A stretch of DNA of 39,399 nt from NCBI GenBank assembly GCA_903915225.1, contig CAIWSB010000048.1, positions 1 to 39,399 on the forward strand. Direction: 5' to 3'. Each line of letters starts with the position of its first letter. The stretch's first letter is position 1. This document shows, piece after piece, positions 1,904-29,823 of the stretch. This DNA is from an uncultured Candidatus Woesearchaeota archaeon (lineage in GTDB: Archaea > Nanobdellota > Nanobdellia > Woesearchaeales > B29-G15). The position numbers were made by a program, and so were the translations under genes. The notes under the pieces are model-generated. The model worked only from the letters and a program-made list of their open reading frames with translations, ran no database searches and had not been told where the DNA came from.

Positions 1904-2860
1904 TCAGTCACCCTCCTTGGAAATATTGTTGTTATGGAGCATATTCTCTAATACTGGCACAAGCTTTTCATACCAGAATGACGCCTGTTGGGATTTGGCT
2001 AAGTAGTGGTTAGCTGAGATGGATTGGCTAGCCCTACCCTGTATGAAATCTGCCACTGATTCCGGGACATTATTGTATAGCATGAGGTTATAGTGCCATT
2101 TCCTGAGGTATTTGAGAGAGAAGGTACACCCTTTTTTGTGGAATTTCTGACGAAGACTATCGTAAGAGCTATTTACTGGCTGAAGCAGACGAAACACAAA
2201 CAATGGAATGTATATGTTATTGATATTCTTGGTATTCCTTAATAGGCTAACATTAGAGTAAGCATAATTGCCATTTATAGTGAATTTATGGCTTTGTAAG
2301 TCTTTTAGCAGCGTTAGGCACTCTATATAGCGTATTCCAGATGTAGCAAGCACAAGGTATACAAGAGAATACTTGGGTACAGAAGCCACTTTTCTATAAT
2401 TGGCGATAACCTCTTCATTACTTGGCACAAAGAAATCTTTCCTGCTTTTAGAAATCTTAAGCACACTTCTGTATTTGGTTATAATGGGTTCTGGCAACAA
2501 TTCAAGCTTTTCACAGTAACGAAGGTATACTCTTGCAGTGTTGGTTAAAGCGTGTACACCATGTGTTTGTTGTTGTATGTATCTTTCAAGCTCTTGTGGG
2601 CTTTTGAAGCGCTTACCGCGTAAATGCCTGTTAAAATAAGACCTAAGGTGAGACACATGATTAGGGATGAACCCTTGGTAAGTAATCCATTCTAAGAAAT
2701 CTTCATTTATGCGAAAAATATGCGCATGTTTTACACCATAATCGTGATTTATTGACGAGAAATCAGAAAAAGCAGATGTGGGGAAAGGGATTCGAACCCT
2801 CGTAGGCACTAAGCCAACAGATCTTGAGTCTGTCCCGTTTGACCGCTCCGGCATCCCCAC
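1904..2860 (-). CDS. Archaeal tyrosine recombinase/integrase (SSV-type-like; apparent N-terminus is tRNA read-through)
   Basis: Catalytic-type motifs: TSGIRYIE (Arg), KYLRKWHYNLM (KxxR-like), PESVADFIQGRASQSISANHYL (Tyr). The first ~28 aa (GMPERSNGTDSRSVGLVPTRVRIPFPTSA) are the in-frame translation of the tRNA-Leu gene. Confidence 0.75.
   Translation of the reverse strand: MGMPERSNGTDSRSVGLVPTRVRIPFPTSAFSDFSSINHDYGVKHAHIFRINEDFLEWITYQGFIPNHVSHLRSYFNRHLRGKRFKSPQELERYIQQQTHGVHALTNTARVYLRYCEKLELLPEPIITKYRSVLKISKSRKDFFVPSNEEVIANYRKVASVPKYSLVYLVLATSGIRYIECLTLLKDLQSHKFTINGNYAYSNVSLLRNTKNINNIYIPLFVFRLLQPVNSSYDSLRQKFHKKGCTFSLKYLRKWHYNLMLYNNVPESVADFIQGRASQSISANHYLAKSQQASFWYEKLVPVLENMLHNNNISKEGD
2777..2860 (-). 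tRNA. tRNA-Leu (anticodon CAA)
   Basis: Minus-strand GTGGGGATGCCGGAGCGGTCAAACGGGACAGACTCAAGATCTGTTGGCTTAGTGCCTACGAGGGTTCGAATCCCTTTCCCCACA. 7-bp acceptor GTGGGGA/TCCCCAC, anticodon arm ACAGA-CTCAAGA-TCTGT, long variable arm, T-arm GAGGGTTCGAATCCCTT. No encoded CCA. Confidence 0.93.
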
Positions 2861-3501: not shown

Positions 3502-3735
3502 TTAGGCCTGCTTTGACATTGTTTCTGTAATGAACTCAACCTTCTGGCTCATGGTCTCAAGCTCCTTGTCCCAGTCCAAAATCTCAGCATCCTCATCCCT
3601 CTTCAGGTCTTTTATCAAGGCAAGCTGCTCCCTGGCCTTCTGGAGATGCTGGTTCAAGGTCTTCACCTTGGAAATAATCTTCTCGTAATCATCAACTTTG
3701 ATAAAAACAGTCTTATCCTCAGCCATCAAATTCAC
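3502..3735 (-). CDS. Small coiled-coil hypothetical protein
   Basis: ORF MNLMAEDKTVFIKVDDYEKIISKVKTLNQHLQKAREQL...; 4-nt overlap with the upstream ORF supports an operon. Confidence 0.6.
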   Translation of the reverse strand: MNLMAEDKTVFIKVDDYEKIISKVKTLNQHLQKAREQLALIKDLKRDEDAEILDWDKELETMSQKVEFITETMSKQA

Positions 3736-4385
3736 CTCTTGAATGCAATCTTGTCTATCTCTTCTAGTGTCTCAAAAATTGTTTTGAGCTCCTTGCGGAA
3801 TTCCCCAACAGCGGCCTGCCTCTGCTCATCAAGGCGGGAAAGCTTGCCTGAATGCTTGCTCCCTGAAACGCTGGTTTGGACTTCCTTTAGGTTCTTCATT
3901 ATGTGCATGAACGCGAATTCCCTGATATACTCCTGCCCGCTGCTCACATAGGTGAGCTGGACAGGCTCAGAAATTACTGGAAAATGAGGTTTTGTCTCGA
4001 CAGGCTCTGGATTCTTCAGCTTAGAGGTCTCTATCTTTTGGAAGCTAATGTCACTAATGTTGACATCCCCCCACTCAGGCTCAGTTTCTCCCGGAACCTC
4101 ATCCAGGGTTTCTTGTCCTTGAGGTGGAGGGACAACCTTGGATTTGGGGCGAGGTATTGGCGGGGTTGGAACTGAAACCCTTGGACTGCCCTCTACTCCT
4201 TCTGGTATCTCCAGGTCTGGTAATTCTGGAATCTCTTCATCGAAGTCTGTCACCTTGGGAGGCGGGACAATCTCTTCAGAATACGGTGCACCCAGGTTTC
4301 CCATGGGTGGCGGGGGAAGTGTCTTTTGCTGTCTCTGTTGGCTGCTCTTGCTAAAGACCCCTTTAACTGTATCTAGGAAACCCAT
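3732..4385 (-). CDS. Proline-rich hypothetical protein with C-terminal helical domain
   Basis: 217-aa ORF; Pro-rich N-half (LPPPPMGNLGAPYSEEIVPPPK), helical C-terminus; first gene of the three-gene minus-strand cluster. Confidence 0.6.
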   Translation of the reverse strand: MGFLDTVKGVFSKSSQQRQQKTLPPPPMGNLGAPYSEEIVPPPKVTDFDEEIPELPDLEIPEGVEGSPRVSVPTPPIPRPKSKVVPPPQGQETLDEVPGETEPEWGDVNISDISFQKIETSKLKNPEPVETKPHFPVISEPVQLTYVSSGQEYIREFAFMHIMKNLKEVQTSVSGSKHSGKLSRLDEQRQAAVGEFRKELKTIFETLEEIDKIAFKR

Positions 4386-4531: not shown

Positions 4532-4624
4532 GGCAGCAACAATAATGGCGGCCGTCGTCGCTAAAGCTCCTCCAGGGACACCCCGTAGGGGGCATCCCCC
4601 GTCCCTGCGGCACCATTGTTGCTG
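4532..4624 (-). ncRNA. Copy 1 of recurrent intergenic structured element
   Basis: Minus-strand GCAGCAACAATGGTGCCGCAGGGACGGGGGATGCCCCCTACGGGGTGTCCCTGGAGGAGCTTTAGCGACGACGGCCGCCATTATTGTTGCTGCC. Terminal arms are complementary; it shares conserved blocks with 9230-9320 and 29676-29823. Confidence 0.75.
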
Positions 4625-4680
4625 CTCGCTGTTTTTATCACGCAACAAAATTTATATAGTTTGGACAAAGAGGTTTTAGC

Positions 4681-5250
4681 ATGGTTGGGGTGGCTATTGC
4701 ACTTGTCGGCATGACGCTTGCCGGAAAGACAGAGGTATCCAATTTTCTGAGGTCCAGGGATTTTAGGTATATCCGCCTGGGGGCAATTACCGAGAAAAAA
4801 CTGATAGAAGCCGGACTTGAAAACACAGAAGCCACAAACCAAATCATGAGGAAAAAGCTCCGCGAGGAATACGGCATGGATGCCTATGCAAAGCTCAACT
4901 TCCCCGAGATTGAAGTGATGCTCAAAAAAGGGGATGTTGTCATTGACAACATGATGTCCTGGTCAGAATACAAATATTTCAAGGCAAAAATAAAAAAATT
5001 CTTTACAGTTGCAGTCTACGCCCCACCCAAGATAAGGTATCTACGGGCTGAGACCAGGGAAGAGCGCTCCACAAAGGATTTTTTCAAGAAGAACACGCCC
5101 GCAGAGCGCGATTACTCGGAGATTGAGAACCTTGAAAAAGGGGGCCCGATTGCAATGGCCGATTATACAATTAACAACAGCGAGCAAGGCAAAGCAAGGC
5201 TGCAGGAAGAGCTTGATAAATTCTGGAAGTGGTTTGAACATGAGGCCTGA
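4681..5250 (+). CDS. UPF0200/dephospho-CoA-kinase-like P-loop nucleotide kinase
   Basis: P-loop GMTLAGKT, LREEYGMDAYAKL, VVIDNMMSWSEY, and an Arg-rich lid-like region. Confidence 0.65.
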   Translation: MVGVAIALVGMTLAGKTEVSNFLRSRDFRYIRLGAITEKKLIEAGLENTEATNQIMRKKLREEYGMDAYAKLNFPEIEVMLKKGDVVIDNMMSWSEYKYFKAKIKKFFTVAVYAPPKIRYLRAETREERSTKDFFKKNTPAERDYSEIENLEKGGPIAMADYTINNSEQGKARLQEELDKFWKWFEHEA

Positions 5251-5956: not shown

Positions 5957-6391
5957 ATGAAGCCGGTATTACTTTTTCTTGCGCTACTTCTCATCCAGCC
6001 AGTTTTTGCTTTTTCTGTTTCATTAAGTGCGGATGAGGTCCAGGTTGGGGAAACAATTGCTTATTGGTTTGAGGGTGCAAATAATTATACAATAAAATAT
6101 ACTATTGAAACCGGCGAGGGGGTTGTAAAGCCCAGGACTGCAACAACCTTTGCCGGGCGGAGGGAATACGAGCCAAAGAAACCTGGGGAATATTCAATCA
6201 TCGCCTGGCTGGGAAACCAGAGTTCAACGGCAAAATTCAGGGTGGTTCTACAAAAGCCAGTTAAGCAGCAAGCACCACCAAAAAATGAGATTTATAGCTC
6301 AAGCAACCTGGCTGCGCGGGTCGCTGCGAAAGATATTCTATTGGGGGTTAGCGTATTACTTTGTTGTGGTATGCTATGGAAAATTATTTAA
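5957..6391 (+). CDS. Secreted/membrane-anchored hypothetical protein
   Basis: Signal peptide MKPVLLFLALLLIQPVFA, Ig-like beta region, C-terminal TM helix. Confidence 0.6.
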   Translation: MKPVLLFLALLLIQPVFAFSVSLSADEVQVGETIAYWFEGANNYTIKYTIETGEGVVKPRTATTFAGRREYEPKKPGEYSIIAWLGNQSSTAKFRVVLQKPVKQQAPPKNEIYSSSNLAARVAAKDILLGVSVLLCCGMLWKII

Positions 6392-6985: not shown

Positions 6986-7587
6986 GTCTGAAGCAGCAGG
7001 TTGAGGCATTGTTGTTTTCTTCTGGCAGAAAAATGCTAGTTGAAGAGCTGGCAACAATACTTAAGGCTCAAAAACAATCTGTTCTGGAGGCATTGAGGTT
7101 GTTGCAGTCTGATTACAAGGGGAAGGAAACTGCGCTGATGATAATTGAAGAGGGAGATAACTGGAAGATTACAGTCCGCGAGGAGCATATGCATCTTGTC
7201 CGCAGCATTATTGTTGAGACTGAGCTCCCAAAGGCTGTGCTGGAAACACTGGCAATAATCGCATGGAGGGCTCCAATCCTCCAATCAGACATAATAAGGA
7301 TAAGGAACAACAAGGCTTACGAGCACATCCAAATGCTGGAGGATTCTGATTTCGTCGCCAGGGAAAAGTACGGCAGGTCATTCAAGCTCAAGCTAACCCC
7401 TAAATTCTTTGAGTACTTCGATGTTGACAACCTCAACAAGCTTAGGGAGCAGATGCAGCAGCAGCCGAAAGTTGAGGCTCCGACGCAACCTGAACAAAAT
7501 GTTGAAATTCCGCAGCCAAATAATGCAGAACCAAATCCTGCAAATGTGCAAGCAGAGCCTGAAGAGCAGCTGCCGAAATCAGAGTAG
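6982..7587 (+). CDS. scpB: Segregation and condensation protein B
   Basis: SLKQQVEALLFSSGRKMLVEELA...LPKAVLETLAIIAWRAPILQSDIIRIR is characteristic of ScpB. Confidence 0.88.
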   Translation: MSLKQQVEALLFSSGRKMLVEELATILKAQKQSVLEALRLLQSDYKGKETALMIIEEGDNWKITVREEHMHLVRSIIVETELPKAVLETLAIIAWRAPILQSDIIRIRNNKAYEHIQMLEDSDFVAREKYGRSFKLKLTPKFFEYFDVDNLNKLREQMQQQPKVEAPTQPEQNVEIPQPNNAEPNPANVQAEPEEQLPKSE

Positions 7588-8346
7588 AGAATATTGTGAG
7601 AGCGGAATTGCCTTTGGGTTCAAATCCTTAAGCTTTTTTTCTAGAATTGATAGGTGCGCCAGGCCGACAACTGCAATTATAGTTCCTTGGGCGCTCAGCT
7701 CGCGGATCCTTTTGGCCATGTGCTCGTCCCTTTCTGGGTTCAAGACCCGTTTTATTTCATCCACAGAATCGCCCGGGAGTATTTGATAAAGCTTGTCCAA
7801 TAGCCCGGGCTTTTGAACCAGCGGTGTGAGGCGCTCATACAACCTCCATCGCGGATAGGATTCCTCAACCTCTGCCTGGACCCGGGCAACATATTCCTCA
7901 ACCCCCATGTCCAATACGCTCTTGATTCCTTCAGCAACCCCTGGCTCTTCTGTCAAAAGTTTTTGGGCTTCCATCTTGAAAACCATTCTGGCCGCATCGG
8001 CGTTATTCCAATCGCCATTTGCCAGCGGGAGGTCTATATATTCCACCTGCACTTCCGGATGTACGCGGGCATGGCTCTTAATGGCCCTGTACTCAAACCC
8101 AATTGCTGCACTGCATTTCTTGCTAACCTCTAGGTAGGTTTCTTTTTGTTTGGGTGTGAGCTCAAGGTTGAGGCCATCAATCTGGTTGTCCAATTTCGTA
8201 CAATCCATCTCCTTCTCAAAACGTGACGCGCCTTCCGGGGATAGCTCTAGTGCTAGAATTGTTGGAGATAATTTATCTATTGCGCGATTTAGGCGTGACT
8301 CACCATAAAGGTCGGTGTGTATTGTACCAACTAGGCATATGCCCAT
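7579..8346 (-). CDS. TraB/TIKI-like domain protein (copy A)
   Basis: N-terminal VGTIHTD and C-terminal VGLAHLS motifs; similar along its length to the neighbouring 8356-9138 product. Confidence 0.72.
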   Translation of the reverse strand: MGICLVGTIHTDLYGESRLNRAIDKLSPTILALELSPEGASRFEKEMDCTKLDNQIDGLNLELTPKQKETYLEVSKKCSAAIGFEYRAIKSHARVHPEVQVEYIDLPLANGDWNNADAARMVFKMEAQKLLTEEPGVAEGIKSVLDMGVEEYVARVQAEVEESYPRWRLYERLTPLVQKPGLLDKLYQILPGDSVDEIKRVLNPERDEHMAKRIRELSAQGTIIAVVGLAHLSILEKKLKDLNPKAIPLSQYSLL

Positions 8347-8355
8347 GGGCTTCCC

Positions 8356-9138
8356 TCAAATTGATTTGTAATTAAGCAGCGATAGCGCTCGTGGATGCAG
8401 GTCTGAAAGCCTCTTTTTTATTCCCTTCATGTGGAGTAATCCGCAAACAACCAGGACCTTGCCCTGTGGGCTTAATTCACGTATCTTTTTGGCCATGTAC
8501 TCATCCCTATCCGGGCTGACTATTTTCTTAATCACGTCAACAGACTCCTTGGGGTATGTCCTGTTGAGCTGGTCCAGCACTCTCGGGCTCCTCATTAGCG
8601 GGGTCATAAGCCCCAGCAGGGGCTGCATCTTGTAAGCCATGTCCACCCTTTGCTGCAGGGTTGCAATAAAAGCATCCTTCCCCATCCGTGACATCATCTG
8701 ATCCACTCCAGCACGCACCTGGGGAGGGATATTCTTAACAGCATTATTCAATAGTTCCCCCATGGCCTTTTGGCCTGTCTCATCTCCCTCTCCAAACACA
8801 GATAGGTCAACATACTCAAGCCGGGTGCCCGGGTGGGCATCAACATATTTTTTTGGAGAATAATACTCAAAGCCAGAGGCCTTGTAAAGTTCTTTGGCAA
8901 TTCCGATTAAAGTGGGGTTTAGGGGCCCTTGACCAATATTTGCCTTCTTGATATCCTCCTCAAGCCGGGATTCCTTTTCCTTCTGGGTCGCAGGAAAGCC
9001 GCGGGTACGATCTTCTGAAAGCTCTATTGCGACAATGTCCGGAGAATACTTATCCAAAATATAATCTAGCCTCTTCTCACCATTAATATCCATGTGCACA
9101 GTGCCAACAATGCATATCTTGTTTGCCATTCCACCCAC
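8356..9138 (-). CDS. TraB/TIKI-like domain protein (copy B)
   Basis: VGTVHMD and CGLLHMK motifs; tandem paralogue of 7579-8346 (shared ..SP.RD.(H/Y)MAK.IRELS.QG motif). Likely start MANKICIVGTVH. Confidence 0.72.
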   Translation of the reverse strand: MGGMANKICIVGTVHMDINGEKRLDYILDKYSPDIVAIELSEDRTRGFPATQKEKESRLEEDIKKANIGQGPLNPTLIGIAKELYKASGFEYYSPKKYVDAHPGTRLEYVDLSVFGEGDETGQKAMGELLNNAVKNIPPQVRAGVDQMMSRMGKDAFIATLQQRVDMAYKMQPLLGLMTPLMRSPRVLDQLNRTYPKESVDVIKKIVSPDRDEYMAKKIRELSPQGKVLVVCGLLHMKGIKKRLSDLHPRALSLLNYKSI

Positions 9139-9229: not shown

Positions 9230-9320
9230 GCAGCAACAATGGCGCCGCCCGGGCGGGGGCCGGCCCCGGGGTGCCCCGGGAGGAGCAATAGCGACGACGA
9301 CCGCCATTATTGTTGCTGCC
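9230..9320 (+). ncRNA. Copy 2 of recurrent intergenic structured element
   Basis: GCAGCAACAATGGCGCCGCCCGGGCGGGGGCCGGCCCCGGGGTGCCCCGGGAGGAGCAATAGCGACGACGACCGCCATTATTGTTGCTGCC; same layout as copies 1 and 3. Confidence 0.75.
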
Positions 9321-13634: not shown

Positions 13635-15092
13635 ATGGCGACATTGGAAGAGGCATTGGACTTTGCATTTGCAGAATTGGATGTATTGCCTAATAACCAA
13701 GCCTCAGTCAAGAATTTCCTCAATATGCTCAAGGAAAAGGACCTGAGCACATATGAGCATTCGGTGAGGGTGGGCCTGCTTGGTGTGAAGGTGGCGCGCC
13801 ACATGCACCTTGATCCCAAGGTGTTTCTTTTTGCCGGGGCGCTGCATGATATCGGAAAAATCATGATTGACCCAGAGGTTTTGAAGAAAACGGGGAGTTT
13901 CTCCGACTCTGATATGGAGGAGATGAGAAAACACCCAGAGTACACCTATAATCTCCTACATGGGGTCCATGACTTTTCAGCAGAGGTTGCGTTGCGCCAT
14001 CATAAATTCCAGGAGGAGGGATACCCGGAGACGCTGCCCAGGCCACCCTTCTCGCCAAATACAAGGGTGATGATCGATTATTTCGCCAGGCTGCTTTCCT
14101 TGGTGGATTTTTACGATGCAATCACCTCAAGGATGAATGAAAAATTTGGAGCCGGAAAGGGGCTTTCCCGTGAAGAAGTTAAATCCATTGTGCTGATGAA
14201 AAACCCTGACCAGAGATACCTCATCGAGGATCTTTACAATAATGGGATTTTCGGAGCAGAGGAAGGAATGCCCACAACGCCGATACAGGACATGCTTTAT
14301 GGAGACATTTGGAAGGATTGGGACGGGAAGAGAAACCCACAGGAAACAAGGAGATATGTCACTCTGGCCTGTGCACTGGAGCCACTCCCCGACAAGGCAG
14401 GCTGTACCACCAGGGGGACAGATATAAGCCGGCATCTGAAGCTGGAGTATTTTATCACTGCAGCCATAAACGTGGGGGATGCGTTTGAGGAACTGGCTGA
14501 GATGTTATCAAGGGGGCAGCCAAGGGTAATCTATCACCTGGCACGCAAGGCTCAGGTAGATTGCGCGAAAAACCGGGGAGGGGGACGCATCAATCAGGGA
14601 ATGCTTGAGATGCTGGTTCCCATAGTGGCCTCCCAAATTTTATTTGACCCTAATTACCAATTAAAGGTAGAAGAGATACTGGAAAAGGCAAAGGGGGTTA
14701 TGAAAAGCACATCCAGGGAGGATGTGGAAGAGCTCATAAAAATGAAGAGGATTGCTTACGATTTGTCTGCCTACCATGAAAGGGAGGTTCCGGCGCACCC
14801 TGATGCGGCAACAGTCTATGATTACTACGCGTTGGATCTGGAGAATTCCAGCAACCAAACGGGAATTGCCCACAACCGGGAATTTGTTTCAGGGTTTCAG
14901 ACAATCAAGCAGATGTATTATTCAATTATGGAAAGCAAACAGAAAAGCTTTGAGGGGAAGGTGGAAGAGGCTTATTCGGCAGCCAGGGGTGGCGTCCAAA
15001 GGGGGACTGGAAAGGGGCTAACTGCTGACTGTATTGCCTGCGCTATTTATCTTGCATTGTCAATGCATCCAAAAGAGAAGATTATCGTCTAA
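13635..15092 (+). CDS. HD-domain phosphohydrolase (HD-GYP-like)
   Basis: YEHSVRVGLLG...FAGALHDIGKI and LRHHKFQEEGYPETLPR; TATA-like aaaactttataaac upstream. Confidence 0.75.
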   Translation: MATLEEALDFAFAELDVLPNNQASVKNFLNMLKEKDLSTYEHSVRVGLLGVKVARHMHLDPKVFLFAGALHDIGKIMIDPEVLKKTGSFSDSDMEEMRKHPEYTYNLLHGVHDFSAEVALRHHKFQEEGYPETLPRPPFSPNTRVMIDYFARLLSLVDFYDAITSRMNEKFGAGKGLSREEVKSIVLMKNPDQRYLIEDLYNNGIFGAEEGMPTTPIQDMLYGDIWKDWDGKRNPQETRRYVTLACALEPLPDKAGCTTRGTDISRHLKLEYFITAAINVGDAFEELAEMLSRGQPRVIYHLARKAQVDCAKNRGGGRINQGMLEMLVPIVASQILFDPNYQLKVEEILEKAKGVMKSTSREDVEELIKMKRIAYDLSAYHEREVPAHPDAATVYDYYALDLENSSNQTGIAHNREFVSGFQTIKQMYYSIMESKQKSFEGKVEEAYSAARGGVQRGTGKGLTADCIACAIYLALSMHPKEKIIV

Positions 15093-29675: not shown

Positions 29676-29823
29676 GCAGCAGCAATGGCGCAGGTCTGAC
29701 GGGGGATGTCCCGAGGTTTCCGATGGACACCAGAGATTCAGAGAATTTCTATGTCTCTGAGTGCCCCCGCGGGGTGCCAGACGAGGAGCGTTAGCTCCGA
29801 CTGCCGCCATTATTGTTGCTGCC
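29676..29823 (+). ncRNA. Copy 3 of recurrent intergenic structured element (with internal hairpin insertion)
   Basis: GCAGCAGCAATGGCGCAGGTCTGACGGGGGATGTCCC...CCCCCGCGGGGTGCCAGACGAGGAGCGTTAGCTCCGACTGCCGCCATTATTGTTGCTGCC; same terminal arms and core blocks as copies 1 and 2. Confidence 0.75.

Follow-up and report, generated by a model that had tools for sequence, protein, structure and literature searches.

The window, a 39,399-nt stretch of DNA from an uncultured woesearchaeal archaeon, carries three copies of an apparently unreported family of folded repeats. The family has a conserved, strand-specific fold, has expanded in copy number, pairs exclusively head to head, exchanges internal modules and differs in presence or absence between congeneric genomes. 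We tentatively interpret it, at close to an even call, as non-autonomous mobile or recombinogenic intergenic DNA in which a trans-acting partner recognises the folded single strand. On this best reading, the repeat would resemble REPINs and attC sites in how it works while being a member of neither family. Three parts of this reading are inferred: single-stranded DNA as the substrate, the existence of a trans-acting protein, and transposition, as opposed to deletion or recombination, as the route by which copies come and go.

Window copies and distribution of the repeat

The original prediction had placed a structured non-coding element on the minus strand at 4532–4624; the element is present on that strand, but the coordinates proved to be off by one (4533–4625). 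As predicted, it stands between divergent genes (3732–4385, minus strand, and 4681–5250, plus strand) and recurs at 9230 and 29676, where copies 2 (9230–9319) and 3 (29676–29822) were located on the plus strand (Table 1). The terminal arms are common to all three copies, and the 3-nt bulge foreseen on one side was found on the 3′ side; the inner stems, which differ among the three copies, and the GGGGG..CCCC..GGGG unit were likewise recovered. Copies 1 and 2 are similar beyond chance (E = 1.6e-22 in a search within their own genome), the folding z-scores of the modelled strand were -4.1, -2.4 and -5.5 for copies 1, 2 and 3, respectively, and a covariance model built without the window copies (R2) retrieved exactly these three elements from the window (E from 6e-20 to 6e-14).

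Table 1 Positions in the window of the folded repeat copies and of the parts of copy 1
Feature	Position	Strand	Details
Copy 1, whole element	4533–4625	-	5′ end at 4625; R2 87.5 bits, E 6.4e-20
Copy 1, P1 5′ arm	4611–4625	-	GCAGCAACAATGGTG
Copy 1, P1 3′ arm	4533–4549	-	unpaired 3-nt bulge at ~4543–4545
Copy 1, P3 5′ strand	4601–4607	-	CAGGGAC; R2 match and P3 covariation
Copy 1, P3 3′ strand	4573–4579	-	GTCCCTG; R2 match and P3 covariation
Copy 1, P4 unit	4581–4600	-	GGGGG-ATG-CCCCC-TAC-GGGG; C strand able to pair with either G strand
Copy 1, P5 hairpin	4558–4569	-	GAGC-TTTA-GCGA; closed by a tandem G-A mismatch
Copy 2	9230–9319	+	R2 64 bits, E 6.1e-14
Copy 3	29676–29822	+	R2 71 bits, E 1e-15; 54-nt multi-hairpin insert in P4, ~29710–29763

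That the element belongs to a larger family was borne out: blastn with copy 2 hit 46 places in the same assembly (G000; 1.69 Mb in 116 contigs, 97% complete), and a first covariance model (R1), made from 19 own-genome copies, gave 49 matches, which puts the family at about 50 copies in this 1.69-Mb genome. Two copies sit at contig ends (C33 and C45), so the assembly probably breaks within copies. R1 also matched 19 of 60 relatives (for example, 29 copies in G038, 27 in G048, 23 in G006, 19 in G035 and 17 in G054) and gave zero matches in both sampled congeners. R2, made from 72 hits in relatives plus extra own-genome copies, found matches in at least 58 of 382 genomes sampled from the phylum, every one of them from the same order or the own genome; at most 10 candidates were scored per genome, so these counts are lower bounds. 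The repeat was not found in most sampled genomes of its own order. A search of 85,488 species genomes for an exact 19-mer of the arm returned 16 scattered singletons, seven of which were tested with the covariance model; only one was a true member (L045, 316–402, E = 2.4e-9, in JAHIVG010000110.1, ‘Nanoarchaeota archaeon MM_PC_MetaG.mb.67’). Two patterns specific to P4 had no hits in viral contigs, where a 16-mer of the arm had 30, none matching the covariance model. Elements are 88–150 nt long and, by crude gene calls, mostly intergenic.

The original prediction could name no known family, and neither could we. None of the 4227 families of Rfam 15 matched at the gathering threshold, where the window yielded only tRNA and its three copies went unmatched; a lax search with element copies in five loci gave no match at E ≤ 5; and a search of the open-access literature, which left out preprints and subscription papers, turned up no account of repeats of this kind for Woesearchaeota or for DPANN archaea in general.

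Among the products encoded in the window are Cdc6, MCM, DNA polymerase D and TFB-like proteins (read by eye) beside DNA gyrase A (confirmed). This set marks the host as archaeal, and the small genomes of its relatives, from one order very rich in families, suggest a DPANN archaeon, probably one of the Woesearchaeales. An archaeal-type tyrosine integrase (1904–2860, minus strand; PF16795, E = 1.8e-32) adjoins tRNA-Leu(CAA) (2777–2860, minus strand), an arrangement typical of integrated elements; the start listed for the integrase frame falls inside the tRNA and is probably wrong. The tRNA-Leu of a congener, G001 (L147, ~8032–8167), aligns with window positions 2769–2860 as two blocks ~43 bp apart, an alignment that suggests a tRNA-Leu intron in G001 that would be absent from the window's genome. 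Two TraB-like genes (7579–9138; the one at 7579–8346 matched PF01963 and its neighbour looks similar) lie together with copy 2 between a ScpB-like gene and gyrA, and in G001 the ScpB-like gene and gyrA are adjacent, without the TraB-like genes and copy 2. In a further congener, G002, gyrA (L126/L127, G002:C6 53843–57547) is split by ~1.3 kb within one open frame of 1240 aa, an interruption that looks like an intein.

A conserved fold carried by one strand

The family shares a common fold of one strand: the P1 arms, whose 3′ side carries the 3-nt bulge, lead through P2 to a three-way junction, from which P3, with the apical P4 unit, and P5 branch off. The consensus reads arm - TGRCG - P2 - P3 - GGGGG.NNG.CCCN.TNC.GGGG.TG - P3′ - NTAGG - P5 - CCGTC - P2′ - N - CRYCA - NNN - arm′. 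Two-sided changes were found in six of seven P3 pairs in the own genome and in 29 of 33 pairs of alignment A3, with a covariation of 0.607 compared with 0.166 when shuffled and at most 0.089 when slid. In alignment A5, composed of 77 copies outside the building of R2, two-sided changes affected 28 of 31 pairs, 92% of cells were paired and covariation reached 0.621 (0.175 shuffled, at most 0.18 slid), in support of the selection on structure that had been proposed. Both alignments were fitted to the model, so the covariation figures are inflated; such fitting cannot, however, explain copies like those of G006, whose arms are wholly different within one genome yet pair with the same bulge. The claim that the inner stems are compensatory survived with a refinement: pairing is kept, but much of the ‘compensation’ is a swap of whole hairpin modules and not a set of independent point changes.

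Arms, P3, P4 and P5 vary even inside one genome, and the conserved portion is the interior, not the ends. In G000, near-identical cores occur both with and without GCAGCAAC arms (C30:19398 versus C109:12040), and a search of this genome for an empty arm palindrome, following the idea of a target hairpin, found none. A subtype (G000:C58:34354–34500 and C13:10097) has a larger, different interior within unchanged outer arms and could represent another set of modules within the family. The GAUGA..GAAUA letters of one subtype fail the hammerhead core by inspection, and a hammerhead was rejected.

The fold belongs to one strand, as RNA or single-stranded DNA, because tandem G-A mismatches (5′-GA/GA-3′) occupy two adjacent P3 pairs in ~52 of 171 copies, alternating with Watson–Crick pairs, whereas the complementary tandem T-C was never seen at these pairs in the 171 copies, and because G-U exceeds A-C by 76 to 39 when each genome and pair is counted once. 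Structure in RNA or in a DNA cruciform had been predicted; the structure stands, but a symmetric cruciform is disfavoured by a fold that is specific to one strand. By whole-strand folding energy, the modelled strand came out ahead in 189 of 214 copies, but this measure was dropped as strand evidence, since composition alone favours the G-rich strand and z-scores are similar on both strands.

In 169 parsed copies of P4, the C strand complements the 3′ G strand across a TNC loop, and the 5′ G strand varies alongside. The types include GGGG/CCCN/GGGG (106 copies), GAGG/CTCC/GGAG (16 copies, 8 genomes), AGGG/TCCN/GGGA (13 copies) and TGGG/GCCC/GGGC (11 copies, 6 genomes); in all but the last the 5′ strand mirrors the 3′ strand and does not complement the C strand, a rule with exceptions such as AGGG/CCCC/GGGG. 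P4 also accepts inserts of 20 to ~130 nt with further hairpins (window copy 3; G054). Antiparallel triplexes are built from the triplets G*G-C, A*A-T and T*C-G, and the strand register of P4 is that of an antiparallel triplex, not of a second Watson–Crick helix. It is conceivable, though distinctly unlikely, that P4 forms a purine-motif DNA triplex within one molecule and that the element is a strand-specific DNA fold read by a DPANN recombinase not yet identified. No more than about three independent triple changes bear on this idea, exceptions occur, and part of these changes is explained by alternative pairing that includes wobble. If true, such an element would be a kind of mobile or structural DNA without precedent.

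Arrangement, turnover and competing explanations

Among 217 distinct copies we found 35 adjacent pairs, all 35 head to head: 18 overlap by 11–19 nt (mode 17, equal to one shared P1 arm), 16 are spaced by 9–31 nt and one by 75 nt. In the own genome only singles, and no head-to-head pairs, were seen. By crude gene calls, the orientation of singles relative to codirectional genes is random (36 same/same versus 33 opposite/opposite), and divergent gaps hold 41 singles versus 13 in convergent gaps. No TATA-like peak was seen upstream of the elements and no U-tract downstream. A UTR element or terminator was rejected because orientation is not fixed, 3′ ends are not enriched (divergent gaps exceed convergent ones) and there is no U-tract; a gene with an ordinary promoter was rejected because there is no TATA-like peak and overlapping pairs leave no room.

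Between the congeneric genomes G054 and G341, which share ~88% identity in alignable DNA, three loci hold orthologous elements with the same arms and with P4 and P5 modules swapped or a large insert in P4. At one intergenic site G341 has a CACGCC-armed pair and G054 an AATCC-armed single, three G054 singles are absent at collinear orthologous sites of G341, and at two further loci the counterpart in G341 or G054 contains other sequence. The empty sites differ by ~150–200 bp, not by exactly one element, so deletion is not excluded. The G001 counterpart of the gap that holds window copy 1 is without the element. Some orthologous elements are kept, their arms preserved at ~88% nucleotide identity, and orthologous copies show a paired G-to-A/C-to-T change in P1; this retention is as suggestive of a host function or of gene conversion as it is of mobility. 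The G054–G341 comparison also revealed at least two other dispersed repeat families (~120 and ~150 bp), distinct from the folded repeat (for example, L140, ~5961–6078 and 14477–14628; L135, several places).

A mobile repeat acted on in trans fits best because it accommodates the strand-specific fold, patchy copy number, head-to-head pairing, module exchange and site polymorphism. In the proposed mechanism, one strand would be exposed as a single strand during replication or repair and would fold into a branched hairpin (P1 with its 3-nt bulge, P2, three-way junction, P3 with P4, and P5); a DNA-processing protein supplied in trans would recognise this folded strand and might move, exchange or recombine copies, as the REP-associated transposase acts on REP hairpins and the integron integrase on attC. 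None of Y1_Tnp, Phage_integrase and RVT_1 tracks the element (DDE families were outside the screen). Each is missing from several genomes rich in the element; any partner is therefore either a different protein or one since lost. Y1_Tnp (PF01797) is absent from G000, G035, G038, G048 and G054, and four Y1_Tnp genes from other genomes had no element within 1.5 kb. Counted against mobility, besides the missing partner, are the lack of target-site duplication, for which own-genome flanks gave the shuffled expectation, and the absence of any recognised copy from the scanned viral contigs.

The main rival is a multi-copy structured non-coding RNA, for which the modelled strand would be transcribed (an inference, without expression data) and the RNA fold would be functional. 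Such an RNA explains the strand-specific fold, with its G-U excess and tandem G-A pairs, equally well, and the conserved TNC loop of P4 (UNC as RNA), the order-wide covariation and the orthologues kept with a paired change in P1 are in its favour. It does not explain the missing promoter-like peak, the head-to-head pairs that share or abut their 5′ arms with no space for two promoters, or the random orientation to neighbouring genes, and a copy number ranging from ~50 to 0 within one genus also speaks against it; we keep it as a live though minority possibility. Conserved orthologous pairs with modules swapped inside constant arms, mostly intergenic positions (crude gene calls) and the strict head-to-head arrangement could instead reflect a host-maintained DNA site, serving nucleoid protein binding, supercoiling or control of forks or recombination, and spread and homogenised by gene conversion as has been proposed for bacterial REP/BIME. 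We consider this unlikely, given that the repeat is absent from most genomes of the order and from congeners, that its sites are polymorphic between congeners and that a duplex-binding site would not predict strand specificity.

An ordinary MITE would have arisen by deletion from a cut-and-paste (DDE) insertion sequence, and the outer arms would then be its terminal inverted repeats; the lack of target-site duplication above shuffles weighs against this origin too. Dispersed intergenic copies of 90–150 bp with terminal inverted repeats, near-identical in most own-genome copies, are what a MITE would leave, but arms differ among copies of one genome though pairing is kept, the interior rather than the ends is conserved, and a MITE has no need of a covarying three-way junction; this origin is disfavoured as very unlikely. 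Near-perfect P1 arms and the one paired change between orthologues might also arise as a mutational artefact, with template switching correcting hairpin arms against each other in the absence of selection on structure. Such switching would erase bulges and mismatches. Across family-level genera, however, the 3-nt bulge and the tandem G-A pairs persist, as do the unpaired letters of the junction and the sequence unit of P4, so that for the interior this account is largely refuted and, overall, scarcely credible.

Significance and comparison with known systems

Most DPANN-type archaea have yet to be cultured, and their non-coding DNA, whether mobile or regulatory, is poorly known. The family described here is widespread in one order, reaches ~50 copies in a 1.7-Mb genome and has an elaborate, clearly constrained fold, yet lies outside Rfam. 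Its fold, P4 unit, head-to-head pairs and polymorphic sites provide a defined handle toward an unknown recombinase or RNA system, and the covariance model is directly applicable to any archaeal metagenome.

REP, REPIN and BIME sequences are short, dispersed, intergenic palindromic repeats with GTAG and CGTC tags; REPs are simple hairpins of 20–40 bp with a terminal GTAG or CGTC and are often tied to a Y1 (RAYT) transposase (PMC3733652, PMC3116915). Head-to-head dimers are common in several REP families, and some families lie inside larger palindromes (PMC3733652). The folded repeat is likewise dispersed, intergenic and palindromic, and its adjacent pairs, none of them in the own genome, are head to head (35/35). 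Unlike REPs, it is 88–150 nt long with a three-way junction, it has no terminal tag (GTAG or CGTC in the 15-nt flanks of 0–16 of 214 copies, by tag and side) and several element-rich genomes are without Y1_Tnp. Of 162 copies from other genomes, 60 have GTAGG and CCGTC internally, on either side of P5; these resemble the two REP tags, and the resemblance is unexplained.

An attC site is strand-specific folded DNA with an imperfect stem, bulges on one side and a variable apical part; its R″ (RYYYAAC) and R′ (GTTRRRY) core sites lie at the stem base, and tandem sites in the same orientation separate cassette genes. Archaeal integrons carry attC recombination sites (PMC9668308). The folded repeat shares the strand-specific fold, similar length, one-sided bulge and variable apical part, but none of 214 copies has the RYYYAAC/GTTRRRY core pair on either strand, the elements are scattered and lie head to head instead of in tandem behind cassette genes, and the sequence of the outer stem is not conserved; an integron attC was rejected on the missing core sites and the non-tandem arrangement. 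Like MITEs, the repeat is non-autonomous and multi-copy with inverted terminal arms; unlike them, it has no target duplication, its interior is conserved and covarying and its ends are variable. Although it matches none of the Rfam families, it has in common with the structured RNAs collected there a covarying multi-helix fold, a UNC loop and tandem G-A pairs.
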